Source of the DNA: Clostridia bacterium
GTDB lineage: Bacteria > Bacillota_A > Clostridia > TANB77 > CAG-508
Length of the DNA stretch: 64,000 nucleotides
Direction of reading: 5' to 3'
Assembly (NCBI GenBank): GCA_017475185.1
Contig: JAFVGB010000004.1
Coordinates: 62,001-126,000, forward strand
This document shows positions 5,287 through 64,000 of the stretch, piece by piece. A program made the translations under genes and the position numbers. Under the pieces are notes generated by a model. It had not been told where the DNA came from and made no database searches. It saw only the letters and a program-made list of their open reading frames with translations. How positions within the stretch are numbered: the stretch's first letter is position 1; every line of letters starts with the position of its first letter.

Positions 5287-5301
5287 TTCCGGAGGAAAGT
5301 A

Positions 5302-38300: not shown

Positions 38301-39742
38301 CTGGAAAAGTTAATAGACAGGCATTAATTGAAATTGCAATAAAAGAACTTAATTTACAAAATAGTAATATTATAAAACCTAGAACTTCTATCGAATTAGA
38401 AATTTATAATATTATAAAAGATTTAATACATACTGATGATTTTTCAATTACAGATGATTTTCTTGATGACTTAAGCATTGATTCTTTAATGCTTACTTCA
38501 GTATCAGTGGCTTTAAGTAATTACAAATTAAATATGCAAGATTTTTACAGTAATCCTAACATTCAAGAATTAGCCCAATTCATTGAAAATAAAAACAAAA
38601 GCTTTAGTTTAATGCCTGAATTAGATAATATTGATGAAATTAACATTTCAAAATTTGATTGTTTATCAAAATTTGATATTTCTACTGTTTTATTAACAGG
38701 TGTTACTGGATTTCTTGGAATTCATTTGTTACACGAATTATTATTAAATAAAAGAGTAAAAACTATTTATTGTATAATTAGAAACAAAATTGGTGTTGAT
38801 GCATCAGAACGTTTAACTCAAATGATTAATTTTTATTATAATTCTGACAAAAAAATATTTGATTTAATTGCTAAAAAGGTTATAATTTTAAATGGAGAAA
38901 TTACTAAACCTAATTTTAATTTATCAGATGATACATATTTATTACTTAAAAATGCAGTTAAAACAGTTATTAACTGTGCTGCAAATGTTAAACATTTTTC
39001 TAAGCCTGAGGAAATAAAAAATGATAATGTTGGAAGTGTTGATAATATGATTAGTTTTTGTGAAAACAAAATTGCTTTAGCACATATTTCAACTTTGTCA
39101 ATAGCAGGATTCAAAGGTCGTGCAACTCGAGATGAATTATTTGACGAAAACACTTTATATATTAAACAAAGTTTTAACAATAATCCTTATTTAATAAGCA
39201 AATTTAATGCTGAAAAACACATTTTTGAAGCTATTACTAAATGTGGATTAAATGCAAAAATTTTTAGACTTGGAAATATTATGCCTAGACAAAGTGATGG
39301 TGTATTTCAATTGAATTATAGCCAAAATATTTTTATTACAGCATTTAAAAGCATTCTTAATATGCAAGTAATTCCTGAAGAATTTCTTGATTTAAAAGTA
39401 GAATTTAGCCCTGTTGATGAATGTGCTAATGCAATAGTAAAATTATTGGATAATTCAAATAATGTTGTTTATCACATTTTAAATAAAAATGAAATTACAA
39501 TTAGACAAGTCATAAAAATCTTTGAAAAGGCTGGATATAAATTTAATATCGTAAGTATGTATCGTTTTACAAATGCATTAAACGGTTTAGATAATGCATA
39601 TGTTAAAGAATATATATTAGGTACAAATTTAAATAACTATTCTCACAAGAAGAGTTTAAAATGTTTAAAAGAACTTGATTTTGAATGGTCAAAAACTGAT
39701 GAGAACTATATTAATAATATTATAAAAATAATAAAAAATTAA
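35360..39742 (+). CDS. Single-module nonribosomal peptide synthetase, C-A-T-R
   Basis: A 1,460-residue NRPS. The condensation domain (about 1-450) has the intact HHILSDG motif near 131. The adenylation domain (about 470-985) has YTSGSTGNPKG near 633, FDASG with the amino-group-binding Asp, NLYGPTEVT, YKTGDTA and SGKVNR. The carrier protein (about 1010-1080) has the phosphopantetheine Ser in LSIDSLM near 1040. The terminal reductase (about 1110-1460) has TGVTGFLG near 1113 and the SDR-type Y-x-x-x-K in YLISK near 1277. It should load one amino acid, acylate or couple it, and release an aldehyde or alcohol. GAAAGGATG precedes the ATG. No phosphopantetheinyl transferase or transporter is nearby. 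Confidence 0.9.
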   Translation: MDKQLFPLTNPQKNFWQLELVNKDSKTLNSILTVMKLPKDTDVNLLDKTLNKIREINDSLRLRFIVDDNCNISQYIEKYKYIPSRIIECNSEDISEVIENEKNDFLTVEGKINELAIIKTPFNCFVFYKSHHILSDGWGMTQVADQIKEIYVMLENGVDLSNYHKPSYLDFISRTEEYLNSSKYLKDKDFWQDFICNVEPCTFFKNINNNDKSAKRIEHEIPELTAKKIENFCAENKITEYSFFLSIISIYIYQIYGINNFAIGTPFLNRQKRFGEFEETGLHISTLPLPINIDNNEDFIQLCKEINSKNLSLYKHGNFPYHDIQRMFMEEKHINSNIYEVGFSYQINISEKEFNSKCYDKSIKASWNSGIGECEWLFSGEQNNAITFHLTQLNVRKLFAIDYLTALFSDEQIEKIFDTIFYLIDQVLASINSNEQFNISKLQIVHPNEVKLLQKFNNTGNMPNFDKNVIDYLEEVVQKHPNKTALICDNVKMSYKTFYDKVNILADILVDHGLFPNSPIVLLFDKSFDMIIAMFAVLKTGCFYVPILPEENKNRLNYILKDCKPSCILTHKSYHNLILDNNVDYINIDSVISNAFDEDIVNYNDFELLNNNSIQISIKNKSIKPENIAYTIYTSGSTGNPKGVQVMHKNIIGLFESMKQSKLLKPAFSDVSMSLLKYSFDASGIDIYSSLLSGGTLLIISKNDELNPVKVLELIEKYKVTRSFLIPKWIENIINTDTNYNYNISSLKILGTGGEVLKPSILNNFLNKYPDLKIVNLYGPTEVTMFTTYKVVGENEIENNYSSIGNPIPGSRIAILNSNNLVLPTGSQGELVVYEDSGSIKNIANGYLNLPEQNSKRFINFYNPICNETVLGYKTGDTAKINNKLELEFIGRNDDIVKVNGGYLVALNEVEKRISSLLGNNIENYCVAVPYKNTKAIILFVHNNEKTISTTQIKLFLKNNLSFYMQPKKIIELDTIPRMVSGKVNRQALIEIAIKELNLQNSNIIKPRTSIELEIYNIIKDLIHTDDFSITDDFLDDLSIDSLMLTSVSVALSNYKLNMQDFYSNPNIQELAQFIENKNKSFSLMPELDNIDEINISKFDCLSKFDISTVLLTGVTGFLGIHLLHELLLNKRVKTIYCIIRNKIGVDASERLTQMINFYYNSDKKIFDLIAKKVIILNGEITKPNFNLSDDTYLLLKNAVKTVINCAANVKHFSKPEEIKNDNVGSVDNMISFCENKIALAHISTLSIAGFKGRATRDELFDENTLYIKQSFNNNPYLISKFNAEKHIFEAITKCGLNAKIFRLGNIMPRQSDGVFQLNYSQNIFITAFKSILNMQVIPEEFLDLKVEFSPVDECANAIVKLLDNSNNVVYHILNKNEITIRQVIKIFEKAGYKFNIVSMYRFTNALNGLDNAYVKEYILGTNLNNYSHKKSLKCLKELDFEWSKTDENYINNIIKIIKN

Positions 39743-39744
39743 TT

Positions 39745-39813
39745 AAACATTTAAAGACCGTCCCCTTAATGTTTCAAATTTGAAACAAAAAAAGACCGTC
39801 CCAAAATGTTTCA
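39745..39813. repeat. REP-like repeats, copies 2 and 3, head to tail
   Basis: Copy 2 (39745-39775) and copy 3 (39781-39813) each carry the core AAAGACCGTCCC and end in TGTTTCA. The junction forms the perfect 18-bp palindrome TGTTTCAAATTTGAAACA (39770-39787). The pair lies between the NRPS stop and the histidine kinase. The same core occurs at 426-458. Confidence 0.65.
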
Positions 39814-39835
39814 AGAAAGGGTGAGTGATAAAAAG

Positions 39836-41845
39836 ATGCAGAAAAATACTAAAGAAGTTCGAAAACATAAGCTTAAATTTATTGAACTTGTTATACTTGC
39901 AGATTTAATTGCTGTTGTAATTTCATATTTTATAATGCCTTTAGCTCAAAATTTTCCTCCTTATACTGAGGATTTTGCGTTTCAGGATGCTGTTCAACCT
40001 TTAACTCATATTCAGCAATATACTATTGCTTTGATTATGGGAGTATGTATTCATTTATTTTCATTTAGATTACTTACTAAAAAGATTTATAGATATATGA
40101 ATAAATATTATAGACACGAAAAAATATCTTATGATGAAATAAAACAGGTACGTAAAGATTGTATTAATATTCCTTACAAATTTTTTGCTTTTCAAATTAT
40201 ACTTTTCCTTAGTGTAGGTTTATTGTTTAATTTTATCATGCTTGCTAATTTATTGAGTATTATTAGATTTACATTAATGATTGCATCTATTGCTGCACTT
40301 CTATCTATAATGTTGCTTATTGTTACTCAAAGATATTTAAGACAGATTTTGCTTACTACATATAATGTTTGTCCTACTTATGAAAAACATACAGGTTATA
40401 GAATAACAAATTCTAAAAATATAATAATTCAAATTACTCCTATATTTTTAGTTATTTTAATTGTTTTATCTTTGATAGGATATTCAAAAGCTGTTACTCA
40501 AGAAGGATATGCATCAGCAAACTATTATAGAGCATATATAGACAACAAAGATATCCACAAAAATCAAATAAATGTGGATAATTTGAAAGAAATTTTAAAT
40601 ACTATTCCTTTAAAAAATAATTGGGATTATTATTTTATAATTACTCCTGATGATAAAGAAATTTATACATCTAAAGAAGATGGTGAAGTTAGTTCTTTTG
40701 CTTTAGATTACAGAGATTTCTTTGATGATAGAACTGGTGGAATCTGGTATGAAAAATTTGGTGTTGATGAACAATTATGCAGCACAAAATTAATCGATGA
40801 AAATGGTAAAACTTGGTATATTGGATATAAATATCAAACTGTTGATCCTGATTTATTAGTTTATTATTCAATACTAATTGTAGTTGTAACATTATTCTTT
40901 GCTTACATTGTTTACTATTTAACTAAAAATTTATCTAATCATTTAATTACAATTTCAACAAGTCTTGAAGACATCTTAAATACTGGTACAGGTAAACAAT
41001 TACCAATTACTTCTAATGATGAATATGGAGATTTGTCATATAATTACAATAAAATTCAAGAATTAAATGCTAGAAACATTGAAGAAATCCAAAATAATCA
41101 GGAAATTCTTATGGAAAAAGAACGTTTAGCTACACTAGGTCAAATGGTTGGAGGAATTGCACACAACTTAAAAACTCCAATAATGTCTATTTCAGGAGCT
41201 TCTGAAGGATTGAAAGATTTAATTAATGAATATGATAATTCTATTGGTGATAGTGAAGTTACTGTTAGTGACCATCATGAAATTGCAAATGATATGAGAA
41301 CTTGGATTGAAAAAATTAACGGATATACAGCATACATGTCAGATATTATTACTGCAGTAAAAGGACAAGCTGTTACACTTTCAAACCAAGAAGTTATTTC
41401 ATTTACTGTTAGTGAATTAGTAAAAAGAGTTCAAATTTTAATGAAACACGAACTAAAAAATTCTTTTATAAACTTAAACGTAAATATGAATGTTGATGAG
41501 AATTTGGAATTACATGGTGATATTAATAGTTTAGTACAAGTTTTAAATAACTTGATTTCTAATGCTATTCAAGCATATGAAGGTAAACAAAATGAAAATA
41601 TTGATTTTGATTTGAATATGGAAGGAAATAATTTACTTATCTCTATAACAGACTATGGTAAAGGTATTCCAGAAGATGTTCAAGAAAAATTATTTAAAGA
41701 AATGGTTACTACAAAAGGAAAAAACGGAACTGGACTTGGATTATTTATGTCTTATTCTAACATTAGAGCTCACTTTAATGGAAATATGAGATTTGAATCT
41801 GAAATTGGCAGAGGAACTACTTTTGAAATTATTTTACCTATTTAA
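39836..41845 (+). CDS. Membrane sensor histidine kinase
   Basis: Signal-sensing kinase of about 669 residues. Six or so membrane helices lie in the first 220 residues; an extracytoplasmic domain (about 225-340) with a PAS/Cache-like look is closed by another helix and a HAMP-like linker. The phosphoacceptor motif is IAHNLKTPI near residue 442, followed by the ATPase N box NLISNAIQAY near 572, DYGKGIP and the G2 box GTGLGLF near 632. An upstream ATG at 39806 lies inside a REP-like repeat, so 39836 is chosen, with AAAGGG about 14 nt upstream; this start is uncertain. No response regulator is adjacent, so it is an orphan here. Confidence 0.88.
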   Translation: MQKNTKEVRKHKLKFIELVILADLIAVVISYFIMPLAQNFPPYTEDFAFQDAVQPLTHIQQYTIALIMGVCIHLFSFRLLTKKIYRYMNKYYRHEKISYDEIKQVRKDCINIPYKFFAFQIILFLSVGLLFNFIMLANLLSIIRFTLMIASIAALLSIMLLIVTQRYLRQILLTTYNVCPTYEKHTGYRITNSKNIIIQITPIFLVILIVLSLIGYSKAVTQEGYASANYYRAYIDNKDIHKNQINVDNLKEILNTIPLKNNWDYYFIITPDDKEIYTSKEDGEVSSFALDYRDFFDDRTGGIWYEKFGVDEQLCSTKLIDENGKTWYIGYKYQTVDPDLLVYYSILIVVVTLFFAYIVYYLTKNLSNHLITISTSLEDILNTGTGKQLPITSNDEYGDLSYNYNKIQELNARNIEEIQNNQEILMEKERLATLGQMVGGIAHNLKTPIMSISGASEGLKDLINEYDNSIGDSEVTVSDHHEIANDMRTWIEKINGYTAYMSDIITAVKGQAVTLSNQEVISFTVSELVKRVQILMKHELKNSFINLNVNMNVDENLELHGDINSLVQVLNNLISNAIQAYEGKQNENIDFDLNMEGNNLLISITDYGKGIPEDVQEKLFKEMVTTKGKNGTGLGLFMSYSNIRAHFNGNMRFESEIGRGTTFEIILPI

Positions 41846-45794: not shown

Positions 45795-45866
45795 ATTATG
45801 ATATAATTATTATGTAATCCTTATGGATACAAATTTTATAAGCCTTAAATGGCAGGAGGTAAACTT

Positions 45867-46475
45867 ATGTTTACAGATCAGAAAATTGCATCAGAGTATG
45901 CAGCAACAATCATTCGCCCATCAACCTCCACTGTAAAGGATCTTGATCCTGAACTTATGCTTATAGCTGAAAACCAGGCTCGTGCAAGCCACGAAGGCTG
46001 GATGTCTGGCAAGCTTGCTCAAGGTTACACTTATGGTCCTGTTACAAATGACGACCCATCCACCGGCCCGCTTACAAACCCTTTGCTTGTCCCTTATGAT
46101 GAGCTCGACGAGGAAACAAAACTGAGTAATATTGCGAACGCTGTCGCAGTTCTCCGCATTATGCGTGACAAAGGTTGTACCTTTGTAAATTTTACTCAGA
46201 TCATTCTGTACCCTCTAGCCAAGCAGATTCATGATGAATGGTCACGCGAGAAAATCAAAGCTGGCTGGAAATGGGGTCCTATAACCGACAAGGCTAACAA
46301 AATTCACCGTGATCTTGTACCTTTCGAAGTGCTTGCTTCAGATCCTGACCTGAACGGAGACATCGCATATGATGTAGATACTGCACGTCAGATTATCATC
46401 AAGATGATTTCTGACAACGATGTATTCCCTATTATTCAGAATCTTGCACAGTTCAAGCTTGAAGAAAGCGCATAA
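45867..46475 (+). CDS. Protein with two RyR (ryanodine-receptor-type) domains
   Basis: A 202-residue soluble protein. Two RyR-like repeats are visible: about 32-75 (ASHEGWMSGKLAQGYTYGPV, then LVPYDEL) and about 127-165 (IHDEWSREKIKAGWKWGP, then HRDLVPFEVL), each with the W-x-x-x-K and LVP[YF]xxL pattern. In bacteria such domains occur alone or attached to other modules and their ligand is unclear. AGGAGGT lies 7 nt before the ATG at 45867; the earlier ATG at 45849 precedes it. The gene is clearly richer in G and C (CGC, GGC, CTC, GAC codons) than both neighbours, suggesting transfer. Confidence 0.82.
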   Translation: MFTDQKIASEYAATIIRPSTSTVKDLDPELMLIAENQARASHEGWMSGKLAQGYTYGPVTNDDPSTGPLTNPLLVPYDELDEETKLSNIANAVAVLRIMRDKGCTFVNFTQIILYPLAKQIHDEWSREKIKAGWKWGPITDKANKIHRDLVPFEVLASDPDLNGDIAYDVDTARQIIIKMISDNDVFPIIQNLAQFKLEESA

Positions 46476-52461: not shown

Positions 52462-55290
52462 TTAATTCATATATTTTCTTCTTCGTAAATCAAATGCTGG
52501 CATTGTTCCTTCTAATATATCTATAACTTTTTTTCTAATATCCAGATTTTCTATACTTCCACTCTTATAAAAAATTTTATTATTATTTTTATCTATATTA
52601 CAATATATTATTTGCTCAGCATCGCAAGCAATTGCAATGTTAGGATTATGTGTAACAATTACAACTTGTCTTTTTTTCTTTGCTTCGCAAATACATGGTA
52701 CTAATTTATCATATACTGATTGATTATCTAGATTATCCTCTGGTTGATCAATTATAATTGGAATATCATCCTTACTTAATGCTAAATAAAAAATTAATAA
52801 TACTATTCCTCGTTCACCTGGAGATAATTCTTGTAAAGACAACTTATCTACTTTTAAGCTATAAACAATATCAATATAATCTAAATTACAAAGTAACTGG
52901 TAAAACTCTTGTTTATTTTTTACCTTTTTAGATGAATTATCTATATCCTCATAAATGCATTCTAAAACCTCTTCTATAAATTTCAACACGTCATTAACAT
53001 TATTAAAATCCTTATCTTTTAACATATTATTAATTGTATTTATAGATTCCGTTTTTCCACTAAAAATACCATTATAGTTTTTAGACACGTAACTCAATAG
53101 TCTACTTCCAAATTCTTTATCTTGTACAACCATATTAGTTGAAAAATTAATTTTACTATCAACGTCATTCAATATTCTCTTTATTTCCTTTTCAACTGGA
53201 GTATATATACTTTTATAAATATCCGTTATTTCTTTTTTCTTTTCAAATATTTCAGTAATTATTTTTACTCTATTATTTCTATGTTCTTCATAATTACTTG
53301 GTAATTGATTTTCTATATAGTCTAATTCTATTTTTAACGCTTCAATACTATTTTCTTTGTCTTTATTTCCTATAATTTCTTCTTTGTTTTTATTCCATTC
53401 CTCTAAATCATGTAAATACTTTTGATATTCTTTTTCTTGTGCATCAGATTTAGAAATTAATTCTTCTTTTTGACTTTCTAAATTTTTCTTTTTGGCTGTT
53501 AGTGATTTATCATTTTCAATATCTAATGTTTTAGATAATTTATTAATTTCTTGTGTAAGGTATATTTTTTTCGTCTTTAAAATTTTAGATGGAAACTCTA
53601 TTTTTATCTTAAAATCAGCTTCGTCAATATTTAATTTTTTTGCTACTATAGGTAGGTTATCATTTATTTCATTTACTTTAATTTGCAAATCATTAATACT
53701 ATATTCTAAGCTATTAATTTCTGAATCTTGTTCCTTTAAGTCTATTAAATCTTTCTCATTCTGAGCTATTTTAAGATTAATTTCTGATATTTGATTATTT
53801 AATGATTCAAGCGTATCCGTATATTTTTTGCTTTGCACTTTCTTTGGTTTTTTTACTTCTTTTGGTTTACTTTTTTCAAGACGCTCTAAGTCACTCTTCC
53901 TTTTTAGCAAATTTGCTTTCACTTCTTCTTTATAAGTCTTTGTAAGTTGTTCTTCGTCTTTTATAATATTTCTATTGATTTCTCTTAATTGCAATTGAAG
54001 CTCATCAATTTTATTTCTAATATTCGTTGTTTTTTCATAAATTAGCTGATTTAAATTCTTAGTATTTCCTCTTTCAACTTTATCAACATATGAAAATATT
54101 ACTTTGTTAATTTCTTCTTGGAACTCATTCTCTAAATCATTACAAATCTTTTCTATAAACTTTTGTGGTAAATACTGAGCGTTTTCTATAGTATATTCTT
54201 GATCAGTATTTGAAGTTAAACTATTTACTTCATCTTTATTTTGATCTTTCCATGTAACTTCAACTTTGTAATCATCTGCCAAATTTTTTGGTTTTTTCAT
54301 AAATCTATTTTCATTTAAAAAAGAAGCTTCTAGCATATTTTTACTATTACAGCCTAATGCAAGAATATCTGATAAAGCACTTTTTCCACTTCCTTTATTT
54401 CCAATTACAGCTATAAGTCCAGGATTCAATTTTAAATCCACATCAAACCATTCTTCTGTCTTATTTTTTGGTTCGTCTTTTCTCTTTATCTTTAATTCAT
54501 CAATATAATTACTATTTTTTTGATCAATCTTATCTAACTTTGGTGGCTTTACACCTACAAATACCCTTTCATTAGGTTGATATATGCATTGTATTAATCC
54601 TTCAAATGTTAAATCAGCTTTAATCCAAAGATTTTCCTTTAACTCATATTCATTTGGATTATGATTGTCAGAACAAATTATCATTGGTTTCTCTTTTATT
54701 GACGTGAATACTTTTTTTCTATATTCTTCAAGATCAGCCAATTTTCCCATTTCAAAAAAATGGACATTTTCCGCTATTTCCTCCTTTATAGCTTGTCCAA
54801 CAGGCAAAGAATTAGTAATCATATCATCTACCCCATTGCTCTTTCTGCCCGCATGTACACTAATAATGCCTTTATGATTTTTTGCAAATTCCACTATATC
54901 ATCAAAATCCCAATATATCTTTTCCATATTATCACTTGATTTTGATTTTGTTCTAATCATTATTGCCTCAAAATCATCTGATAGTGTTTTTAAATCTGCT
55001 TTACAATCAAATATCAATATTATATGTAAATTAGCTGCTCCTTTATCAGTTCTTAATTCAACCCCAGGGAAAAAAATTATATCAGGCGCCAATTTTCTCA
55101 GATTTTCAATTCTATCTCTATCTATTACAAAATGATCCGTGATAGCAACTGCTGAAATTTTATTCTTTTTTAGTTCATTACATAATAATTGATCTGCATC
55201 ATCCCCCTTATATTTATAATCATATGAAGACTTTGTATGCAAATGTAAATCCCATTTTCTCCATTCAGATCCTCTTTCAAAATTTTCCAT
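52462..55290 (-). CDS. PHP-domain and SMC-like ATPase (TrlF family type)
   Basis: A 942-residue protein. The N-terminal PHP phosphoesterase domain (about 1-270) has HLHTKSSYD, ITDHF, GVELRTD and CSDNHNP, the metal-binding signatures. An ABC/SMC-type ATPase follows: Walker A GNKGSGKSALS near 293, a long coiled coil (about 390-700, Lys/Glu-rich), the signature LSPGERG near 820, Walker B IIIDQPEDN near 845, and the switch THNPN. Proteins of this build (called TrlF-like) occur in defence islands and are believed to be nucleases or nucleotide-processing enzymes powered by ATP. Its neighbours are a DUF4143 ATPase and a type I restriction system. Exact activity is inferred. Confidence 0.85.
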   Translation of the reverse strand: MENFERGSEWRKWDLHLHTKSSYDYKYKGDDADQLLCNELKKNKISAVAITDHFVIDRDRIENLRKLAPDIIFFPGVELRTDKGAANLHIILIFDCKADLKTLSDDFEAIMIRTKSKSSDNMEKIYWDFDDIVEFAKNHKGIISVHAGRKSNGVDDMITNSLPVGQAIKEEIAENVHFFEMGKLADLEEYRKKVFTSIKEKPMIICSDNHNPNEYELKENLWIKADLTFEGLIQCIYQPNERVFVGVKPPKLDKIDQKNSNYIDELKIKRKDEPKNKTEEWFDVDLKLNPGLIAVIGNKGSGKSALSDILALGCNSKNMLEASFLNENRFMKKPKNLADDYKVEVTWKDQNKDEVNSLTSNTDQEYTIENAQYLPQKFIEKICNDLENEFQEEINKVIFSYVDKVERGNTKNLNQLIYEKTTNIRNKIDELQLQLREINRNIIKDEEQLTKTYKEEVKANLLKRKSDLERLEKSKPKEVKKPKKVQSKKYTDTLESLNNQISEINLKIAQNEKDLIDLKEQDSEINSLEYSINDLQIKVNEINDNLPIVAKKLNIDEADFKIKIEFPSKILKTKKIYLTQEINKLSKTLDIENDKSLTAKKKNLESQKEELISKSDAQEKEYQKYLHDLEEWNKNKEEIIGNKDKENSIEALKIELDYIENQLPSNYEEHRNNRVKIITEIFEKKKEITDIYKSIYTPVEKEIKRILNDVDSKINFSTNMVVQDKEFGSRLLSYVSKNYNGIFSGKTESINTINNMLKDKDFNNVNDVLKFIEEVLECIYEDIDNSSKKVKNKQEFYQLLCNLDYIDIVYSLKVDKLSLQELSPGERGIVLLIFYLALSKDDIPIIIDQPEDNLDNQSVYDKLVPCICEAKKKRQVVIVTHNPNIAIACDAEQIIYCNIDKNNNKIFYKSGSIENLDIRKKVIDILEGTMPAFDLRRRKYMN

Positions 55291-55360
55291 ATACTTCCCC
55301 CTTTTTTATATTACAACATCTTTTCTAAAAAATTTGTCGAAACTTGTCATTAATTATCAA

Positions 55361-55408
55361 AAAAGCAAAATAATTCTGTAAATTTACTTACACTCTTATT
55401 TTGCTTTT
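55361..55408 (-). terminator. Terminator of the DUF4143 ATPase gene
   Basis: AAAAGCAAAATAA (55361-55373) pairs with TTATTTTGCTTTT (55396-55408), 13 bp, with a 22-nt loop, just after the gene ending at 55425. Confidence 0.65.
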
Positions 55409-55424
55409 CTTTTGTCCTATAAAC

Positions 55425-56654
55425 TTATTTTTTATATTCTAATAGCCAATCTAATACATTTATTTTCTTTATACCATCAAAATCTGCATCTAAGTCATCA
55501 TCTAAAGTTAAAATATATTTAGGATAGTTATCATCAATTTTTTTCAGTGGAGCTAATTCTCTTTCTAAGGTCAAACTATGTCCTATTTCTCCTTCTCTTG
55601 TTGTTAGTGTAACTTGATAATAAAAAGTATTTTCTGAGTTTTTCGCAACAAAGTCGACTTCTAAATCGTCATATTTTCCTATATATACTTCATATCCTCT
55701 TCTTAATAATTCAAGATAAACTACATTTTCTAATATATGTCCCATATCTCGACCTGATCCTTGACCTAACATATAATATCTTAAGCCTATATCAATAGCA
55801 TAATATTTTTCTTGAGTCTTTAAGAATTCCTTTCCTTTTATATCATATCTATTAGCTTTATAAACAATAAAACTGTCTATAAGCGCATCTACATATGCTG
55901 ATACTGTATTATATGAATTATTTTTTTCTAGTCCCTCTATATTGTCACTTATGCTTTTCATGCTAGTTCTATTTCCTATATTATCATATAAATACTTAGT
56001 AACCCTTTCTAAAGTATTTCTATCTGTTATACCTTTTCTTTGCATTACATCTTTAAATAAAACCGTATTATATATACCATCTAAAAATAAATTGATATTA
56101 TCTGGATTTATTTTGTATAATTCGATTGCTTGAGGAAACGAACTATATCTTAAATAATCTCTAAACTTTCTTGATATATCTGTTTTATCTTCAAAAGCTG
56201 ATATATATTCTTTAAATGATAATGGTAACATTTTTATTTCTATATATCTTCCTGTAAGTAATGTTGCAAGTTCTGATGATAAAAGCCAAGCATTTGAACC
56301 TGTTATATATAAGTCAACGTCTTTATTGATAAATAAACTATCTACTGTTTTTTCAAATTCTTTAACTTTTTGTATTTCATCTAAAAATATATATGTTTTT
56401 TTACCTTTTATTAATTTTGATTTTAAATATTCATGTAACTTCATTCTATCTTGTAATTCTTCATAATCAGCATCCTCAAAATTAATCGATATTATTTGTT
56501 CTTCTTCTACTCCATTTTCCTTTAAATAATCTTGAAATATTTCAAGTAATGTAGATTTTCCACATCTTCTAATTCCGGTTATTACCTTTATTATATGTTG
56601 ACCTTTGAAATTTTTTAATATAGATAAATAATCTTCTCTATTTATTCTTTCCAT
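55425..56654 (-). CDS. AAA ATPase with DUF4143 (archaeal-type ATPase family)
   Basis: A 409-residue ATPase. Walker A is TGIRRCGKSTLL (about 25-36); Walker B is TYIFLDEIQKV (about 83-93); sensor YITGSNAWLLS follows. The C-terminal half carries DUF4143, with KGKEFLKTQEKYYAIDIGLRY and the nuclease-like LEVDFVAKNSENTFYYQV (a D-x-x-A-like core). Such proteins are widespread in gut anaerobes and their role is poorly defined; a mobile or defence link is often suggested. The ATG at 56654 is preferred over 56702 because GGAGGAG lies just upstream of it. Confidence 0.88.
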   Translation of the reverse strand: MERINREDYLSILKNFKGQHIIKVITGIRRCGKSTLLEIFQDYLKENGVEEEQIISINFEDADYEELQDRMKLHEYLKSKLIKGKKTYIFLDEIQKVKEFEKTVDSLFINKDVDLYITGSNAWLLSSELATLLTGRYIEIKMLPLSFKEYISAFEDKTDISRKFRDYLRYSSFPQAIELYKINPDNINLFLDGIYNTVLFKDVMQRKGITDRNTLERVTKYLYDNIGNRTSMKSISDNIEGLEKNNSYNTVSAYVDALIDSFIVYKANRYDIKGKEFLKTQEKYYAIDIGLRYYMLGQGSGRDMGHILENVVYLELLRRGYEVYIGKYDDLEVDFVAKNSENTFYYQVTLTTREGEIGHSLTLERELAPLKKIDDNYPKYILTLDDDLDADFDGIKKINVLDWLLEYKK

Positions 56655-56793
56655 ACAATCTCCTCCAACTATAATTATACTACCTTTTATTATTATAGTC
56701 AAGTTTTTTCAAAATTATGAAAAGACTTTTTGTTTTTATAAACTTTTTTCATATGTATACAATTTAATATTTCAACATACTTATAAATTTATT

Positions 56794-56868
56794 CAGATAA
56801 TCAATTTTATGAGAAGTTTGATGATGGTAAAATTGTTAATATTACAGATGAAATTCCTTTTGATATAC
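56794..56868 (+). repeat. 75-bp inverted repeat, left copy (silent hsdS side)
   Basis: Exact reverse complement of 58770-58844. It begins CAGATAATCAATTTTATG and encodes the conserved hsdS spacer NQFYEKFDDGKIVNITDEIP. It is the expected recombination site for inversion of the 2-kb segment between the copies. Confidence 0.92.
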
Positions 56869-57395
56869 GTGATTCATGGAGATGGATAAGACTTGAGAAT
56901 TTAGTCATAAAACAAATAAAAAGAGGAAAATCACCTAGATATGTAGATAGGAGTAATGTATATGTGTTTGCTCAAAAATGTAATCCTAAAAACGGGAAAA
57001 TCACTTTAGAAAATGCAAAATTTTTGGATGAAGAAATTTTAAATAAATATGATGAATCAGATTTTATAAATAAAAATGATATAATAATAAATTCCACAGG
57101 TAATGGAACACTAGGTAGAATAGGAATTATTGATGAAGAAAGAATCTTTTTAAATAAAATCGTTGTAGATTCCCATGTTACTTTAATTAGAATTAATAAA
57201 AATTATATAAATCCATATTACATTTTTTATTTATTAAAAACATATCAAAGATATTTAGAATCTCAGGCTTCTGGATCTACAAATCAAACTGAATTAAGTC
57301 CAGAAGTAATAAAAAAGCTTTTAATTCCTTTACCTTGTACCAACGAACAAAACGGAATTATATCAAAAATTAATAGCTTATTAAACTTAATATAA
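56794..57395 (+). pseudogene. Silent hsdS cassette (alternative second target-recognition domain)
   Basis: Encodes only the second half of an HsdS specificity subunit. From the left inverted repeat the frame reads NQFYEKFDDGKIVNITDEIPFD, then a target-recognition domain unlike that of the expressed gene (RDSWRWIRLENLVIKQIKRG, FAQKCNPKNGKITLENAKF, GSTNQTELSPEVIKKLLIPLPC) and the end NEQNGIISKINSLLNLI. It has no start codon or ribosome site at its 5' end, since the reading begins at the repeat; the in-frame ATG at 56818 is internal. Inversion would join it to the first half of hsdS. Confidence 0.85.
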
Positions 57396-57430
57396 TTATA
57401 TAATGACATACTGGAAAGGAGGTTTTCAGT

Positions 57431-58234
57431 ATGTCTTTTACTTTTGAAAAATATCTCAAAAGCAAAAATCTTTCTCAAAATACCCAAAAAGTATATTTAT
57501 TTACAGTTCAACAATACCAGTCAAAATATTTAATTATTAACGAAAAAAATTTACAATCATATAAAACATTTCTTGTTGATAATTATAAAATAAAAACTGT
57601 AAATTTGAGAATTCAAGCAATTAATACCTACTTAAAATATCTAAAAAAGGAGCATTTAAGATTATCACTATTAAAATTACAACAAAAGAATTTTCTTGAA
57701 AACGTTATTAGTGAAGCAGATTATGAATATTTCAAAAAATGTTTAAAAAAAGATAAAAACTATTATTGGTATTTTGTTATAAGATTTATTACTGCAACTG
57801 GTGCAAGAGTTAGTGAATTAGTACAATTTAAAGTAGAACATGTAAAAATAGGATATTTTGATCTTTATTCTAAAGGCGGAAAATTAAGAAGAATTTATAT
57901 TCCAAGTAAATTACAGGAAGAAGCTTTAAAATGGTTTGAATCTATTAACTTGACTAATGGATTTATATTCAAAAATAAATATGGAAAAAGAATAACTACT
58001 CGTGGAATCGGTGGAGAATTAAAAAAACTTGGCATTAAATACGGATTAAATCCAAAAGTCATTTATCCTCACTCATTTAGGCATCGCTTCGCTAAAAGTT
58101 TTTTAGATAGGTTTAATGATATTTCTTTATTAGCTGACCTAATGGGACATGAAAGTATTGAAACTACACGAATTTATTTAAGAAGAACTAGCACTGAACA
58201 ACAAGAAATTGTCAATAAAATAATTGATTGGTAG
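57431..58234 (+). CDS. Tyrosine recombinase, probable hsdS invertase
   Basis: A 267-residue tyrosine recombinase with an N-terminal SAM-like DNA-binding domain (about 1-85) and the catalytic domain: Arg in TGARVSELV near 124, Lys in SKGGKLRR near 151, HSFRHRFAK near 214 (H and R), GHESIETT near 239 and Tyr in RIYLRR near 249. All catalytic residues are present. It sits between the silent cassette and hsdS, inside the segment bounded by the inverted repeats, as in phase-variable type I systems of other Firmicutes. AAAGGAGG lies 8 nt before the ATG. Confidence 0.92.
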   Translation: MSFTFEKYLKSKNLSQNTQKVYLFTVQQYQSKYLIINEKNLQSYKTFLVDNYKIKTVNLRIQAINTYLKYLKKEHLRLSLLKLQQKNFLENVISEADYEYFKKCLKKDKNYYWYFVIRFITATGARVSELVQFKVEHVKIGYFDLYSKGGKLRRIYIPSKLQEEALKWFESINLTNGFIFKNKYGKRITTRGIGGELKKLGIKYGLNPKVIYPHSFRHRFAKSFLDRFNDISLLADLMGHESIETTRIYLRRTSTEQQEIVNKIIDW

Positions 58235-58237
58235 AAA

Positions 58238-58263
58238 AAAACAGCTGATTATTCAGCTGTTTT
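58238..58263. terminator. Bidirectional terminator inside the invertible segment
   Basis: AAAACAGCTGA, loop TTAT, TCAGCTGTTTT. It lies between the convergent recombinase and hsdS; the hsdS TAA stop overlaps the loop. It would insulate both genes in either orientation. Confidence 0.85.
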
Positions 58264-59835
58264 AATGTAATCAAATATTTCTTTAATTTTAAAAACAATT
58301 CTTTTTTGTTCATTCGTATTTGGTATTGGAACTAAAAAATTTGGTAAAAAATCTTTATGAATTCTTTGTTGCCCAGCAGTTCCATTATATGTTTTTATGC
58401 CAGTATCTATAAAATAAGAAGATTTAATTAACCCAAAAATATATTCTTTTAAAACATCTTTAATAATTGGCCTTAGTATATGTAACTCTGTAGTTCCTGC
58501 ACCATAACCATTTTTTAAATTACTAAAAATAGTAGATTTTCTATTTTGAAAACAAGGTGTAATTTTGGCTAATCCAATATCATTTTCTCTAAAATGTGTA
58601 AAGCCACTTTTAATTTCTTTCCATTTTTTTATTTCAAATGTATGAGAATTTTTATAACCACCTTCAATTAATGTCATAGGAATAAAAGAAACTTCTAATT
58701 TATCATCTAATGAATTTCTAGGATTTATTAAGCAAATATTCTTCATTCTAGTCCAACACCAATTTTCTGGTATATCAAAAGGAATTTCATCTGTAATATT
58801 AACAATTTTACCATCATCAAACTTCTCATAAAATTGATTATCTGTACTATCTTTATATATTACTGATAAATTTTCTTTCTTAATTTGCTTTGTTTTAATT
58901 AGTTTTCTTTTTTCATCTAAAATCTTATTAATTAAAACGTCTACTGATTCATCATTAGAATCTTGTTTTACAAGTTTCCCTTGTATTGCATATTGAAGAA
59001 TTGATTTTTTTAGTTCTTCTTTATAGTTTTTATTTAAAGATTCTAATTTTTTATATTTATTATTATAATTATTAATGATTGGATTAATTGATAAAATTTT
59101 ATTTGTTATATTTTTTTGTTCATTGTAACAAGGTAATGGTATTAAAAAATTATTAATTAAATCCATAGAAATATTATCATTAGTAGAGTTTTTATTTTTA
59201 TTTATTAATCCTTTAACGTATGAGGATTGAATTACATTATAAATATAACTTATATTAATTAAATTACTATATGAATTAATACATGCAACACGTTGATTTA
59301 AATACATTTTTTCATCTATATGTTCTATTAAAAATGATTTTCCTACAGTTCCACCTGTCATAGCCATAAGTATACTATTATCTCCAATATCATAATTTTC
59401 GAATTTTATATTAGGATCTATTCTAACAATTTTATTATTTTTTAATCCTGTTTCATCAAAATCAGATATTCGTATTACTCTAATTTTATTATTTTCCTTT
59501 AAATCGCTACTTTTAAATGAAAAACCTGTAATTATTTTAACTATGTTATTTAACCTTATCCATTCCCAACTATCAGGAATATCAAAAGGAATTTCTTCGG
59601 TAATGTCATTTATAGTTCCATCTTCAAACTTCTCATAATAATGATTATCTGAAGGATCTTTGTAAATTTCTGAATATTTTTCTCTTTTTATCTTCTTCTC
59701 TTTTATTAGTTTTTCTCTTTCTTCTTTAATCTTTTCCAATAATACTGAAGCTGGTTCATCATTAAGATCTTGCTTTACTAACTTACCTTGTATAGCAAGT
59801 TGAAGAATAGAGTTTTTTAATTCTTGTGCAGTCAT
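58249..59835 (-). CDS. hsdS: Type I restriction-modification specificity subunit HsdS
   Basis: A 528-residue specificity subunit with two target-recognition domains separated by conserved helical spacers. The two halves begin alike: KSSILQ/NSILQLAIQGKLVKQD at about 9-21 and again near 290, followed by YEKFEDG/YEKFDDG and EIPFDIP-x-x-W-x-W. TRD1 spans about 90-250, TRD2 about 360-510, ending FDYIKTAE. The right inverted repeat (58770-58844) falls in the second spacer, so TRD2 is the part exchanged by inversion. GAGGAGG in the end of hsdM gives the ribosome site; the genes are 1 nt apart. Confidence 0.93.
   Translation of the reverse strand: MTAQELKNSILQLAIQGKLVKQDLNDEPASVLLEKIKEEREKLIKEKKIKREKYSEIYKDPSDNHYYEKFEDGTINDITEEIPFDIPDSWEWIRLNNIVKIITGFSFKSSDLKENNKIRVIRISDFDETGLKNNKIVRIDPNIKFENYDIGDNSILMAMTGGTVGKSFLIEHIDEKMYLNQRVACINSYSNLINISYIYNVIQSSYVKGLINKNKNSTNDNISMDLINNFLIPLPCYNEQKNITNKILSINPIINNYNNKYKKLESLNKNYKEELKKSILQYAIQGKLVKQDSNDESVDVLINKILDEKRKLIKTKQIKKENLSVIYKDSTDNQFYEKFDDGKIVNITDEIPFDIPENWCWTRMKNICLINPRNSLDDKLEVSFIPMTLIEGGYKNSHTFEIKKWKEIKSGFTHFRENDIGLAKITPCFQNRKSTIFSNLKNGYGAGTTELHILRPIIKDVLKEYIFGLIKSSYFIDTGIKTYNGTAGQQRIHKDFLPNFLVPIPNTNEQKRIVFKIKEIFDYIKTAE
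58770..58844 (-). repeat. 75-bp inverted repeat, right copy (within hsdS)
   Basis: Exact reverse complement of 56794-56868. Beyond the repeat, both flanks diverge at once (GATATACC versus GATATACG on one side, TACAG versus TTCAG on the other), which marks it as a recombination site rather than general homology. Confidence 0.92.
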
Positions 59836-59836
59836 T

Positions 59837-61333
59837 TTATTCCTCCTCTAATAATTTACTTACTTCAGATAATATTTTGTCTATCTCTGCATTTAAACTT
59901 GCTCTTTGTTCTTGATATTGTTCTATTAATTCTTTTGGTTCTAATATAATTTCTTCTTTATGAGGATATCCACATAAATCAATATTATATCCATTATCTA
60001 TTATCTCTTTAATTGTATAACATTTAGATTTATATGTTGTTGTTTGTTCTTCACTTTCCTTTTCATCTATAATTACTTTTCTATCATTCCACCATTCTTT
60101 TACATTATCAAAATGTTTATTTAAAATTGGTTTTGTCTTTGAAAAATTTTTATATCCTTCAGGCATATCCATTCTATAAAACCATACTTTATCTGTCGGT
60201 TTTGTCTTATCAAAGAATAGTATATTAGTAGTAATTGAAGTATATGGAGCAAATACAGAGCTTGGCATTCTTACTATTGTATGTAAATTAAAGTCTTTCA
60301 TTAATTTTTCTTTAATATTTACTTTTGTATTATCAACTCCAAATAAGAAACCATCTGGTAATATAACCGCACATCTTCCGTCTTGTTTTAATCTATACAT
60401 TATTAAAGTCATAAATAGGTCAAATGTCTCTGATCCTCTTAAATTTGATGGAAAATTTGCTTGTATATTTTTCACTTCATGTCCACCATATGGAGGATTC
60501 ATTAATACAACATCATATTTTTCGTTTTCTTTATAATCCTTTACATTTCTGTCAAAACTATTTCTATGTTCAATATTAGGTTCATCAATATCATGTAATA
60601 GCAAATTAGTTATACAAAGTAAATACGGTAATGATTTTTTCTCAATTCCATATATAGAATTATCATATAGTTCCTTATCTTCAACTGTTTTTACTTGATT
60701 CTTTAAATAATCCAAAGTTGATGTTAAAAATCCACCTGTACCACATGCAAAATCTGCAATTTTATCATTTAATGATGGATTTATCATTTCTACCATAAAG
60801 TTAGTTACTGGTCTTGGTGTATAGAATTCACCTGCATTTCCAGCGCTTTGTAATTCTTTTAACATAGTTTCATATATTTCATTAAATTCATGTTTTTCAT
60901 TTGAATTAGTAAATTTAATTTCATCAATAATATTGATTACCTGTCTTAATAAAATTCCATTTTTCATATAGTTGTTTACATCATCAAATGTATATTTTAC
61001 TATTGCTTTACTAATAGGTGTATTCTCATTTATATCTAATTTTTCAATTCCAGGAAATAGATCTTCATTAACAAATGCTAATAATTCATCTCCTGTTAAC
61101 GCATTTCCATCTTTTTTATCAACTGCCCAATTTCTCCATCTTAAATTATCTGGAAGTATTGACTTAAAGTTTGAATCATGAAATTCCCATAATTTTTCTT
61201 TGTCATCATACACTTTTAAAAACAATATCCATACTATTTGTTCTAGTCTTTGTGCATCTCCTGCAACTCCATCATCTTTCCACATTACATCGTTAAGTCT
61301 TTTTACTATATTACCTATTCCCACTATTTTCAC
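59837..61333 (-). CDS. hsdM: Type I restriction-modification DNA methyltransferase HsdM
   Basis: The adenine-N6 methyltransferase subunit, 498 residues. N-terminal helical domain (VKRLNDVMWKDDGVAGDAQRLEQIVWILFLK with its natural continuation), then motif I DFACGTGGFLTS near 192 (S-adenosylmethionine) and motif IV NPPYGG near 278 (catalysis), followed by FILFD-like NILFFDKT. The C-terminal coiled tail EQYQEQRASLNAEIDKIL would contact HsdS. It lies 2 bp from hsdR and 1 bp from hsdS, all in one operon. No missing motif. Confidence 0.96.
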   Translation of the reverse strand: MKIVGIGNIVKRLNDVMWKDDGVAGDAQRLEQIVWILFLKVYDDKEKLWEFHDSNFKSILPDNLRWRNWAVDKKDGNALTGDELLAFVNEDLFPGIEKLDINENTPISKAIVKYTFDDVNNYMKNGILLRQVINIIDEIKFTNSNEKHEFNEIYETMLKELQSAGNAGEFYTPRPVTNFMVEMINPSLNDKIADFACGTGGFLTSTLDYLKNQVKTVEDKELYDNSIYGIEKKSLPYLLCITNLLLHDIDEPNIEHRNSFDRNVKDYKENEKYDVVLMNPPYGGHEVKNIQANFPSNLRGSETFDLFMTLIMYRLKQDGRCAVILPDGFLFGVDNTKVNIKEKLMKDFNLHTIVRMPSSVFAPYTSITTNILFFDKTKPTDKVWFYRMDMPEGYKNFSKTKPILNKHFDNVKEWWNDRKVIIDEKESEEQTTTYKSKCYTIKEIIDNGYNIDLCGYPHKEEIILEPKELIEQYQEQRASLNAEIDKILSEVSKLLEEE

Positions 61334-61335
61334 TC

Positions 61336-63687
61336 CTAACTAGCATATAATTCGTTTTCTAATTCTTCTACTACCTCTAAATACTTATCTTTTCCACCAA
61401 ATACCTCTACAATATCCATTGGTGATCCATATTCATTAAAAGGTTTTAATTCTAATATTTTTGTATCAGTTAATTCCAACTCATTATTATCACTATATTT
61501 TTCTAATAAATCCTTTAAAATATTTTGTGCCATTTCTGAATATTTATATAAATATCCTTTTTTTATGACATTATTAACTCTTTCATATCTTGTTAATGGT
61601 TTCTTATCATAAGCTATATGCAATATTAAATCAAAATCTCCAATATCATCAATGCCTATATCTTTTCTAAGCTCATAAATTAAAACACCTTGTTGTTCTA
61701 ATTCATCTAATATTGCTTGTTTTCTATCTGTTGAATTCCATTTATGAAGAAAATCATCAAGTGAAGCATATTCATTTAATATACTCTTTTTGCTAAAATC
61801 TTTTAGAGATTCTGTAACTAATTTTCCATCTTTATCATAATATGAAACAATTTCATTATAAATACTTACGTCTACACCATTAACGTGTAATTTACCTTTT
61901 CTTTCTCCAGTTTCTATTGGTTTCAATGTTGGAGTATCTGTTCGATATTCTTCTCCTTCTTCAGCAACTCCAATAACGGTTGTGTTTACATCACTATCAT
62001 CTGGTGTATCGTCATTAGGATTTACGTTCTTAATACTTACTGGTTCTCCATCAAAATCAGGATCACTAAATAATCTACTAGCATTTCTAAAATCCATAAT
62101 TGTAAAATATGTTTTGTTATAATCCTCTCTAATTCTAGTTCCTCTACCTATAATTTGTTTAAATTCTGTCATTGAATTTATGTTTGAATCTAAAACTATC
62201 AACTTACATGTTTTACAATCTGCACCCGTAGTTAATAATTTACTTGTCGTAACAATTGTAGGGTATTTCTCCTCAACATCAATAAAGTTTTCTAATTGTG
62301 CCTTACCTATTTGATTATCCCCTGTAATTCTCATAATGTAATTAGGATTCTCTGCAACCATATCGTTGTTTTCTTTTATTAATGCTTGTCTCATTCTTTC
62401 TGCATGTTCTATATCTATACAAAAAACTATAGTTTTATTATACCTGTTAGTATTCTTTAAAAACTCCGTAACTCTTTTGGCAACTGCTTCAGTTCTCTCA
62501 TCTATAATTATTCTTTTATCCATATCGGTTTGATAATATGTCTCATCATCTTCAATAATATTGCCATTAATATCTCTTTTTCCAGCTTCTGGTCTATATC
62601 CAACTAAATCTTTATCTAAATTAATTCTTATAACCTTATATGGAGCCAAAAAACCATCATCGATACCTTGTTTTAATGAATATGTATATATTGGTTCTCC
62701 AAAGTATTGAATATTAGATATTTCGTTAGTCTCTTTTGGTGTTGCTGTTAAACCTATTTGTGTAGCACTTTTATAATACTCTAATATTTTTTTCCAATTA
62801 GAATCATCAGCAGCACTACCTCTATGACACTCATCAACAATTATTAAATCAAAAAAGTCTTCACTAAATTGTTTAAATATATCCATTCCTTGACCATCAG
62901 TTAATTGTTGATAAAGAGCCATATAAATTTCAAAAGAACTGTCCATTTTTCTATTTTCAATTTTTGTCATTATTTTAGTAAACGGTTGAAAATCTTGAGT
63001 CATTGTTTGATCTATTAACATATTTCTATCTGCAAGATATAAAATTTTTCTTTTTAATCCTGATTTTTTTAATCTATGTATTATTTGGAAAGCTGTAAAG
63101 GTTTTTCCTGTTCCAGTAGCCATTACTAATAATAGTCTTTTTTGACCTTTAGCAATAGCTTCACAAGTTCTATTAATTGCAATTGTTTGATAATATCTAG
63201 GTTTATTAACTCCCGGAGCATAGTAATATGGTTCATTAATTATCTTTTCTTCCTCGTCTGTTATTTTTTTAGCAACTTTATATCTATACCATAAGTCATC
63301 TGGAGAAGGAAATTCGTCCATTGGTATTTCTCTTTCATTTCCTGTTAGCATATCATGTTCTAGAAATGCTACACCATTAGTTGAATATGCAAAAGGTAAA
63401 TCCAAAGTTTTAGCATATTCTATTGCCTGTTGCATTCCAGTACCAACTTCTAAATCATATTTTTTTGCTTCAACAACAGCTATAGGCTTTGAACTATTAT
63501 AATATAAAATATAATCAGCCTTTTCTCCTTTAGCCCTTGTAGACATATTTCCTCTTACTATAACTTTACCAGCTGTAAAATAAACCTCACTTCTTATTTG
63601 TGTTTCTAAATTCCATTTTTTTGTTAACGCTGGTGTAATATATATATTTCTTGTATCTTCTTCAGAAAGATTTTTATAACCCTCCAT
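61336..63687 (-). CDS. hsdR: Type I restriction endonuclease subunit HsdR
   Basis: The ATP-dependent translocase/nuclease subunit, 783 residues, of the shorter EcoEI-like type. Nuclease motif KADYILYY...VVEAKK near 48-76; helicase motif I MATGTGKT near 187; DECH near 285; GLTATP near 305; later GRGTRIREDY. The C-terminal domain is like that of EcoEI R. A ribosome site GGAGGG lies before the ATG. First gene of the operon, downstream of a promoter at 63736-63764. It appears intact. Confidence 0.95.
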   Translation of the reverse strand: MEGYKNLSEEDTRNIYITPALTKKWNLETQIRSEVYFTAGKVIVRGNMSTRAKGEKADYILYYNSSKPIAVVEAKKYDLEVGTGMQQAIEYAKTLDLPFAYSTNGVAFLEHDMLTGNEREIPMDEFPSPDDLWYRYKVAKKITDEEEKIINEPYYYAPGVNKPRYYQTIAINRTCEAIAKGQKRLLLVMATGTGKTFTAFQIIHRLKKSGLKRKILYLADRNMLIDQTMTQDFQPFTKIMTKIENRKMDSSFEIYMALYQQLTDGQGMDIFKQFSEDFFDLIIVDECHRGSAADDSNWKKILEYYKSATQIGLTATPKETNEISNIQYFGEPIYTYSLKQGIDDGFLAPYKVIRINLDKDLVGYRPEAGKRDINGNIIEDDETYYQTDMDKRIIIDERTEAVAKRVTEFLKNTNRYNKTIVFCIDIEHAERMRQALIKENNDMVAENPNYIMRITGDNQIGKAQLENFIDVEEKYPTIVTTSKLLTTGADCKTCKLIVLDSNINSMTEFKQIIGRGTRIREDYNKTYFTIMDFRNASRLFSDPDFDGEPVSIKNVNPNDDTPDDSDVNTTVIGVAEEGEEYRTDTPTLKPIETGERKGKLHVNGVDVSIYNEIVSYYDKDGKLVTESLKDFSKKSILNEYASLDDFLHKWNSTDRKQAILDELEQQGVLIYELRKDIGIDDIGDFDLILHIAYDKKPLTRYERVNNVIKKGYLYKYSEMAQNILKDLLEKYSDNNELELTDTKILELKPFNEYGSPMDIVEVFGGKDKYLEVVEELENELYAS

Positions 63688-63704
63688 ATATTTGCCCCCT
63701 ATAC

Positions 63705-63735
63705 AACTTCCGATAACTTTTTATTATCCGAAGTT
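63705..63735. promoter_or_regulatory. Inverted repeat at the hsdR start region (operator or dif-like site)
   Basis: AACTTCCGATAA (63705-63716) and TTATCCGAAGTT (63724-63735) match at 11 of 12 positions around a 7-bp spacer. It overlaps the expected start of hsdR transcription. The arm layout also resembles a Xer dif site (ACTTCC-like left arm, TTAT-like right arm), but the spacer is 7 instead of 6 bp and the right arm is poor. Repressor operator or recombinase site cannot be decided from sequence. Confidence 0.5.
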
Positions 63736-63764
63736 ATAATATCATAAACAGACATTTTTCTCAA
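63736..63764 (-). promoter_or_regulatory. Promoter of the hsdRMS operon
   Basis: Minus-strand TTGAGA (63759-63764), 17-bp spacer, TATTAT (63736-63741), 50 bp before hsdR. It lies outside the invertible segment, so expression stays on in both orientations and only specificity changes. Confidence 0.65.
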
Positions 63765-64000
63765 TAAAATCAAAGAAATTTGCTCTACAAATTTTTCTAC
63801 TTTTTTCGACAAAAAAATACAACTAAAAAAGGGGCTTTGAATCTCCATAATTTAGAATTGTCGACCTGCCAATTTCTGTGCTTGCTTAAAAGCAAGAAAT
63901 GAAATTTCCGACCGACCAAATTCAATGCTTGCTTAAAAATAATAATTTAATAAAAAAATTAAAAGTTTTTTTACAACTTTTAAAAACATAAATATCCCCC
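63765..64000. other. Gene-free window end with two imperfect direct repeats
   Basis: No gene is supported. CGACCTGCCAATTTCTGTGC (63862 onward) and CGACCGACCAAATTCAATGC (63909 onward), each followed by TTGCTTAAAA, recur with a 47-bp period. The first copy forms a small hairpin CTTGCTT-AA-AAGCAAG. TTAAAAGTT and AACTTTTAA near 63959-63985 form an AT hairpin that may terminate a gene beyond the window. Confidence 0.4.

Follow-up and report, generated by a model that had tools for sequence, protein, structure and literature searches.

The 64,000-nucleotide stretch of Clostridia bacterium DNA analysed here (assembly GCA_017475185.1, contig JAFVGB010000004.1, positions 62,001 to 126,000; hereafter the window) carries a type I restriction-modification locus with a second, silent copy of part of its specificity gene. 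The genes hsdR, hsdM and hsdS are all full-length and form one minus-strand operon with gaps of 2 bp and 1 bp, giving a complete restriction-modification set. The expressed hsdS gene encodes two target recognition domains (TRD1 and TRD2). In the present orientation, a gene for a tyrosine recombinase of the PsrA/CreX family faces the hsdRMS operon across a short hairpin, and upstream of it lies a half-length hsdS cassette with a single TRD and no hsdS start. The open frame that contains this cassette spans positions 56787 to 57395. Its first in-frame GTG, at position 56964, would allow a protein of only 143 amino acids, and the TRD of the cassette is open along the entire length. The coordinates of all features of the locus are given in Table 1.

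Table 1. Features of the proposed hsdS switch locus, numbered from the first letter of the window.
Feature	Position	Strand	Basis or remark
Invertible segment including both repeat arms	56794..58844		exact 75-bp inverted repeat; open HsdS after in-silico inversion
Left arm of the exact 75-bp inverted repeat	56794..56868	+	
Right arm of the exact 75-bp inverted repeat, within hsdS at the TRD2 entry	58770..58844	-	
Silent half hsdS cassette, one TRD, no hsdS start	56796..57395	+	Pfam Methylase_S 4.2e-11
Proposed recombination site, silent copy, type B, ATAATCAATTTTATGAGAAGTTTGA	56797..56821	+	common part of exact inverted repeats, 9 loci
Proposed -10 box of the recombinase gene, TATAAT	57399..57404	+	invariant in 9/9 aligned leaders
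Leader hairpin, 13-bp stem, 5-nt loop; holds AAGGAGG ribosome-binding site and recombinase ATG	57405..57435	+	
Tyrosine recombinase gene, PsrA/CreX family	57431..58234	+	Phage_integrase 7.4e-24; 267 aa
Hairpin between converging genes, proposed terminator for both	58238..58263	both	folding
hsdS, expressed specificity gene, TRD1 and TRD2	58249..59835	-	528 aa
Proposed recombination site, expressed hsdS, TRD2 entry, type B	58817..58841	-	core copy, codons, repeat comparison
Type A site, TRD1 entry of hsdS, same TATGAGAAGTT core	59623..59649	-	core copies; type A pairs in relatives
hsdM, N6-adenine methyltransferase subunit	59837..61333	-	family matches
hsdR, EcoAI/FtnUII-family restriction subunit	61336..63687	-	NCBIfam NF046051, 1116.5 bits vs cut-off 550

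An earlier reading of this stretch, made from the letters alone (the sequence-only reading), had claimed that an exact 75-bp inverted repeat joins the start-less half gene to the second spacer of the full hsdS, that a complete tyrosine recombinase and a bidirectional terminator lie between the arms, and that inversion would swap TRD2. The repeat was confirmed as the longest exact inverted repeat in the window, the runner-up being 30 bp long; its right arm does lie inside hsdS, more precisely at the TRD2 entry than in the second spacer. Repeat identity ends abruptly beyond the left end and decays towards the inside. The recombinase of 267 amino acids is indeed complete, with the residues of a tyrosine recombinase in place, and because its gene is located inside the invertible segment it would flip along with it. 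As for the proposed terminator, the hairpin between the converging genes folds on both strands with -15.2 and -13.8 kcal/mol (values reached by 0 of 200 shuffles on either strand), and a similar one was found by eye 3' of the recombinase in L001-L007 and L009, but it was not among the sites listed by a consensus terminator scan. When the segment was flipped by a script, an open HsdS of 530 amino acids was obtained, compared to 528 at present, in which residues 1-355 are unchanged and TRD2 is different. The stop codon of this HsdS begins at position 58243 and is followed after 35 bp by the start of the recombinase gene, now codirectional with hsdRMS. The claimed exchange of TRD2 is thus supported by the inversion in silico, by relatives in both orientations and by database proteins with and without an HsdS head, as described below.

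The recombinase is 55% identical over 263 amino acids (residues 5-267) to a protein annotated as PsrA on a Streptococcus dysgalactiae plasmid, and R126, K148, K151, H214, R217, H240 and Y249 are identical in the alignment of the two proteins. We take these to be catalytic-type residues, the assignment of the catalytic lysine being uncertain. Among solved structures, the recombinase is closest in sequence to a XerC-like enzyme and to XerA. It belongs to a large family, with 7807 of the 7999 scored candidates passing a threshold of 1e-60. At an E-value limit of 1e-90 or 1e-95, a recombinase was found in 3/195, 4/289, 4/288 and 4/291 of the genomes related to G001, G004, G006 and G009, respectively, each centre included, and those not already known are 57-59% identical. 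One relative, 59% identical, was detected in viral contigs (L040), where the site scan listed no hsdS-type site. A closer relative (82% identical) at positions 5983-6804 of L008 has neither a matching hsdS nor a leader hairpin and is located beside a likely serine recombinase (4295-5602, assigned by eye).

The core TATGAGAAGTT occurs three times in the window, compared to 0.1 expected occurrences, once in the silent cassette and once at each of the two TRD entries of hsdS. Around TTATGAGAAGTT, a candidate site of about 25 bp can be delimited that resembles the published CreX core, suggesting that it may serve as the recombination site. Compared by eye with the CreX core ATTATGGGAA, as given in a passage of PMC6620402, ATTATGAGAA of type A agrees in 9/10 and TTTATGAGAA of type B in 8/10 bases. 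No second type A site was found in the window. A cross of the TRD1 site with the silent TRD2 site, which would yield a half HsdS of 261 amino acids, was considered as a possible further product and is without any support. In the set consisting of the window, L001-L007, L009 and L015, the core is preceded by CATTAT at TRD1-entry sites and by CAATTT at TRD2-entry sites, a difference that may keep the two site types apart. In the same set, 34 of 34 sites encoding YEKF read TAT GAG AAG, while elsewhere in these genes GAG accounts for 68 of 571 and AAG for 123 of 974 codons. The 34 sites are related by descent and therefore do not represent independent trials. The hsdS-type sites of L024, L025, L027 and L028 also read TAT GAG AAG.

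A scan of genome contigs yielded 16 related loci (L001-L016). In ten of them (L001-L007, L009, L010 and L015) the recombinase gene has a matching hsdS as its neighbour; no HsdS match was obtained at 1e-8 in L008, L011-L014 and L016. Orientation was determined for the window and for nine of the ten hsdS-linked loci (all but L010). The recombinase is codirectional with the expressed hsdS in six of them (L001, L002, L005, L006, L007, L009) and opposed to it in L003, L004, L015 and the window. For L001, L007 and L009, where hsdM is off the contig, the orientation was deduced from which hsdS lacks the head. L003 and L009, and likewise L004 and L007, share their silent-side flanks, as judged by eye, and have opposite orientations. 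The silent cassette comprises two TRDs in L001-L005, L007 and L009 and one in the window and L006; in L015 it is off the contig. Contig ends at the repeats (L005, L007, L010) had been considered as proof of inversion and were rejected as such, since assemblers break at such repeats anyway. The HsdM near the L003 module is only 29% identical to that of the window, indicating that this module serves another hsdRM pair. The recombinase of L001 is 97% identical to that of the window, while rpoB of the L001 genome is only 57% identical (best rpoB 81%, in G217). The module has therefore probably moved between lineages, to judge from these identities, though contamination of a genome bin would look alike. 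A different arrangement was seen at positions 6477-7436 of L041, an Enterococcus durans plasmid, where an IS30-like transposase lies between two opposed hsdS genes and no psrA match was found in the stretch examined.

Further evidence comes from database proteins. A search with the inverted HsdS (7999 candidates scored) gave 6128 matches, of which the best 120 were analysed; a rule-based classification assigned 47 of these as headed and 9 as beginning at the site, with 64 being neither. The silent TRD2 of the window recurs at 96-98% identity as TRD2 of P0245 and P0246, both with a full HsdS head and start, and also in P0250, P0251, P0253 and P0254, all of which start close to the proposed recombination site. 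The headed P0246 and the headless P0254 are identical in 449/449 residues from the site to the end, and the same holds for 458/458 residues of P0265 and P0299, cassettes with and without a head. TRD1 of the window is found unchanged in P0247 together with another TRD2, and the 70 sequences that could be segmented include many pairs with one TRD in common, at no less than 97% identity, and the other different. As the protein records come from different contigs, inversion and exchange between strains are not always separable; it is the whole-cassette pairs ending at the site that fit inversion best. P0247 and P0251 share a headless start, MHLYHSFNFFTIFP, and carry different cassettes, and both records list a longest contig of 481684 bp; they represent either two silent copies located on the same contig or a single locus in two states.

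Anatomy and relatives together provide good support for a switch at the level of sequence, and we conclude that the locus is very probably a PsrA/CreX-type hsdS inverton that switches TRD2. In the proposed mechanism, the recombinase made inside the segment would recombine the two sites of about 25 bp in the 75-bp repeats, flip the segment and exchange the expressed TRD2 for the silent one. Accordingly oriented cells would modify and cut one or the other of two bipartite targets that share one half. The flip would at the same time move the recombinase gene from its position facing the hsdRMS operon to the codirectional position behind hsdS that was obtained in silico.

Some observations weigh against this conclusion or against the part played in it by the local enzyme. 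The inverted HsdS of this strain was absent from the matches listed by the protein search, where it would have been expected at rank 1 (best match 78% identical). TAT GAG AAG is kept in hsdS genes without psrA in the stretches examined (L041, L045, L046 and L049). Wider stretches were checked for psrA for the last three of these (L072, L073 and L076, respectively), and the genome of L073 has psrA elsewhere (L064). The codon choice is therefore not attributable to the local recombinase, and its value as proof of PsrA action, for which it had been considered, is weakened. In addition, a passage of PMC6620402 describes that in SpnIII CreX is strictly required for inversion at the 15-bp repeat only and that long repeats invert without it, so that the 75-bp repeat might also flip without the local enzyme. 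A differing account is given in a passage of PMC7096588, where PsrA is reported to drive most of the inversion at all three repeats.

These last findings bear on the possibility that general homologous recombination, acting between repeats as well as between strains, exchanges the specificity cassettes and that the local recombinase is dead or irrelevant. The CreX-independent inversions of SpnIII would fit this explanation, as would the occurrence of the same TRDs in different strains, and 75 bp may suffice for some homologous recombination. The recombinase frame is nevertheless open and its catalytic-type residues are present, and the exact repeat at the TRD2 site spans just 26 bp in L002 and 29 bp in L006, even though imperfect similarity continues beyond it. 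Moreover, identity ends 11-17 nt before the same core in 7/7 outer ends compared (type A of L001, L002, L003, L004 and L009; type B of the window and L006). We therefore regard this explanation as improbable, and the sequence comparisons suggest that the local enzyme likely performs the inversion. A silent half gene that has decayed to a remnant, with the locus fixed in a single state, would agree with the failure to find the inverted form of this strain among the proteins but is highly improbable: the silent TRD is open throughout and shares 96-98% identity with TRD2 of two HsdS proteins that have a start, and the two repeat arms still match along their full 75 bp.

The comparison with SpnIII proposed in the sequence-only reading proved apt, given the 55% identity of the recombinase to a PsrA. 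The pneumococcal SpnIII, Spn556II or cod locus (hsdR, hsdM, hsdSA, hsdSB, psrA, hsdSC) is likewise of type I with a recombinase of the same family among its hsdS genes (PMC4948785). In SpnIII-like loci, too, the recombinase changes orientation along with the hsdS genes, according to passages of PMC6620402 and PMC12324116. That the arrangement is compact, with one silent half gene, as had also been claimed, is true here but not unique, as the pneumococcal hsdSB (609 bp) is a one-TRD silent gene as well, with a terminator between it and the recombinase (passages of PMC4948785, PMC6620402 and PMC12324116). The switch principle, the half-length silent gene and the flipping recombinase were thus already known. 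The pneumococcal locus differs by an additional two-TRD silent gene, as described in a passage of PMC4948785; with only one silent cassette and one repeat pair, two states are expected here compared to six there. A REBASE survey counted duplicated hsdS genes with inverted repeats for 875 of 22107 hsdS genes (Atack et al., 2020; PMC7394358), and our locus shares with those loci an expressed hsdS behind hsdM, a start-less silent hsdS on the opposite strand and exact repeats of at least 20 bp. By description, it can also be likened to inverton group 145 of the gut community hCom2, where hsdS-overlapping invertons are enriched with tyrosine recombinases (passages of PMC11892184). Our results extend the pneumococcal hsdS inverton, in a minimal two-state form, to uncultured Clostridia and Bacilli (by record titles) and provide a candidate site for enzymes of the PsrA family that is both short and portable.

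When a recombinase moves its own gene into or out of an operon by inversion, the question arises how its dose is kept steady, and the leader of the gene suggests a testable hypothesis. Between the end of the silent hsdS and the recombinase start, the leader reads TATAAT GACATACTGGAAA GGAGG TTTTCAGTATGTC. Nine leaders were aligned (window, L001-L007 and L009), all of them from hsdS-linked loci whose recombinases share at least 87% identity. Opening of the start region requires 11.4-18.0 kcal/mol in 9/9 leaders, with 0 of 100 shuffles as high in each, while a control set of 37 other ATG starts with a ribosome-binding site from the window and L001-L009 had a mean of 4.45 and a maximum of 9.66. 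The leader of L008, the 82% relative without hsdS, has 4.2 kcal/mol, with 53 of 100 shuffles as closed. For RNA assumed to start 6-8 nt after TATAAT (alignment columns 12-14), the opening energy in the 9 loci is only 2.0-7.0 kcal/mol, compared to 10.3-17.8 kcal/mol for read-through RNA. The leaders of L001-L007 and L009 are 88-97% identical to that of the window where aligned, and the gene 83-89%.

Based on these folding energies and on the conservation, we tentatively propose that the leader hairpin guards against translation of hsdRMS read-through, so that only a short transcript from the gene's own promoter is translated; we see this as a possibility, and a somewhat doubtful one. On operon read-through mRNA, the conserved hairpin would most likely keep the ribosome site closed, whereas a transcript from the own promoter, which would lack part of the 5' arm, should be translatable. 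Recombinase output would thus be low and similar in both orientations. Such hiding of a start codon is known from IS10 and IS50, where the transposase start is hidden on read-through mRNA and the mRNA from the own promoter is translatable; the difference is that the recombinase gene would come to lie in a transcribed operon through its own inversion and not through transposition. Recombinase transcription that depends on orientation is a published feature of such loci, as creX mRNA of SpnIII is 2.6-fold higher when the gene is codirectional with hsdRMS (a passage of PMC6620402). If true, the leader guard would be a translational answer to this difference in mRNA level and would insulate the invertase from the consequence of its own reaction, resulting in a symmetric switch with a rate independent of orientation.

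Three results argue against such a guard. No evident -35 box was found, the match being 1-4 of 6 positions. In the leader alignment, 95% of cells pair, and covariation is thin, being limited to a single pair in which both partners change (8 of 500 shuffles score as high). In L024, L025 and L027, closure of the hsdS-linked leader is not significant. That a closed leader is a general property of PsrA genes was rejected, as among 18 further leaders, with start codons chosen by rule, 6 were clearly closed and 9 not at all. The closed ones, with at most 3 of 100 shuffles as closed, are L010 (0), L026 (0), L028 (2), L074 (2), L077 (2) and L019 (3); L013 (5), L078 (6) and L027 (9) are intermediate, and the remaining 9 leaders have 24 or more. 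For L027, the annotated start gives 3.0 kcal/mol (91/100), and the rule-chosen start 7.8 kcal/mol (9/100). The psrA leader of S. dysgalactiae also differs, its start closure not being significant (29 and 26 of 100 shuffles as closed). No match to the leader pattern was found in viral contigs. Our literature searches turned up no account of such a hairpin in front of an hsdS invertase gene, and passages of PMC4948785, PMC12324116, PMC11709252 and PMC6212727 do not describe one, which is weak evidence of absence.

Two other functions of the hairpin were weighed. With 13-bp inverted arms around a 5-bp centre, it resembles the layout of a recombinase or repressor site and could be a DNA palindrome, either an operator or a site of PsrA autoregulation, instead of an RNA device. 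G-U pairs are, however, found in 15/104 stem cells, including one that is invariant, and a C/U change opposite G occurs in 4/8 rows. As G-U pairs keep the RNA pairing but break a DNA palindrome, and as the arms are unlike the recombination site (by eye), the RNA reading is favoured and a DNA palindrome seems unlikely. Alternatively, the hairpin and the U-rich stretch that follows might act as an attenuator that stops read-through before the recombinase gene. The window copy is the sole terminator-like site listed between 56600 and 58900, where 0.3 would be expected; yet the U-rich tail is part of the coding sequence, and L004 and L005 have it interrupted but retain the stem (by eye), which makes an attenuator quite unlikely. 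A guard against translation of read-through mRNA stays our tentative reading of the leader.

Rfam gave no match at gathering scores in the region 55000-64000. The restriction system adjoins genes for a TrlF-family ATPase (52462-55290; NCBIfam NF045780, 648 bits vs a cut-off of 350) and for an AAA/DUF4143 ATPase matching PADLOC PDC-S01 (55425-56654), with which it forms a small defence island. Elsewhere in the window, a single open frame of 5099 amino acids on the minus strand (19669-34968) has long internal repeats and, as judged by eye, a membrane-like stretch at its C-terminus, and probably encodes a giant surface protein. A nonribosomal peptide synthetase with a single module (35360-39742) is composed of condensation, AMP-binding, carrier and terminal reductase-like (NAD_binding_4) domains and adjoins a histidine kinase (39806-41845). 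Further genes encode a protein with two RyR domain stretches (45849-46475; Pfam PF02026) and a pilin-like protein with five SpaA prealbumin-like stretches (7015-8919).

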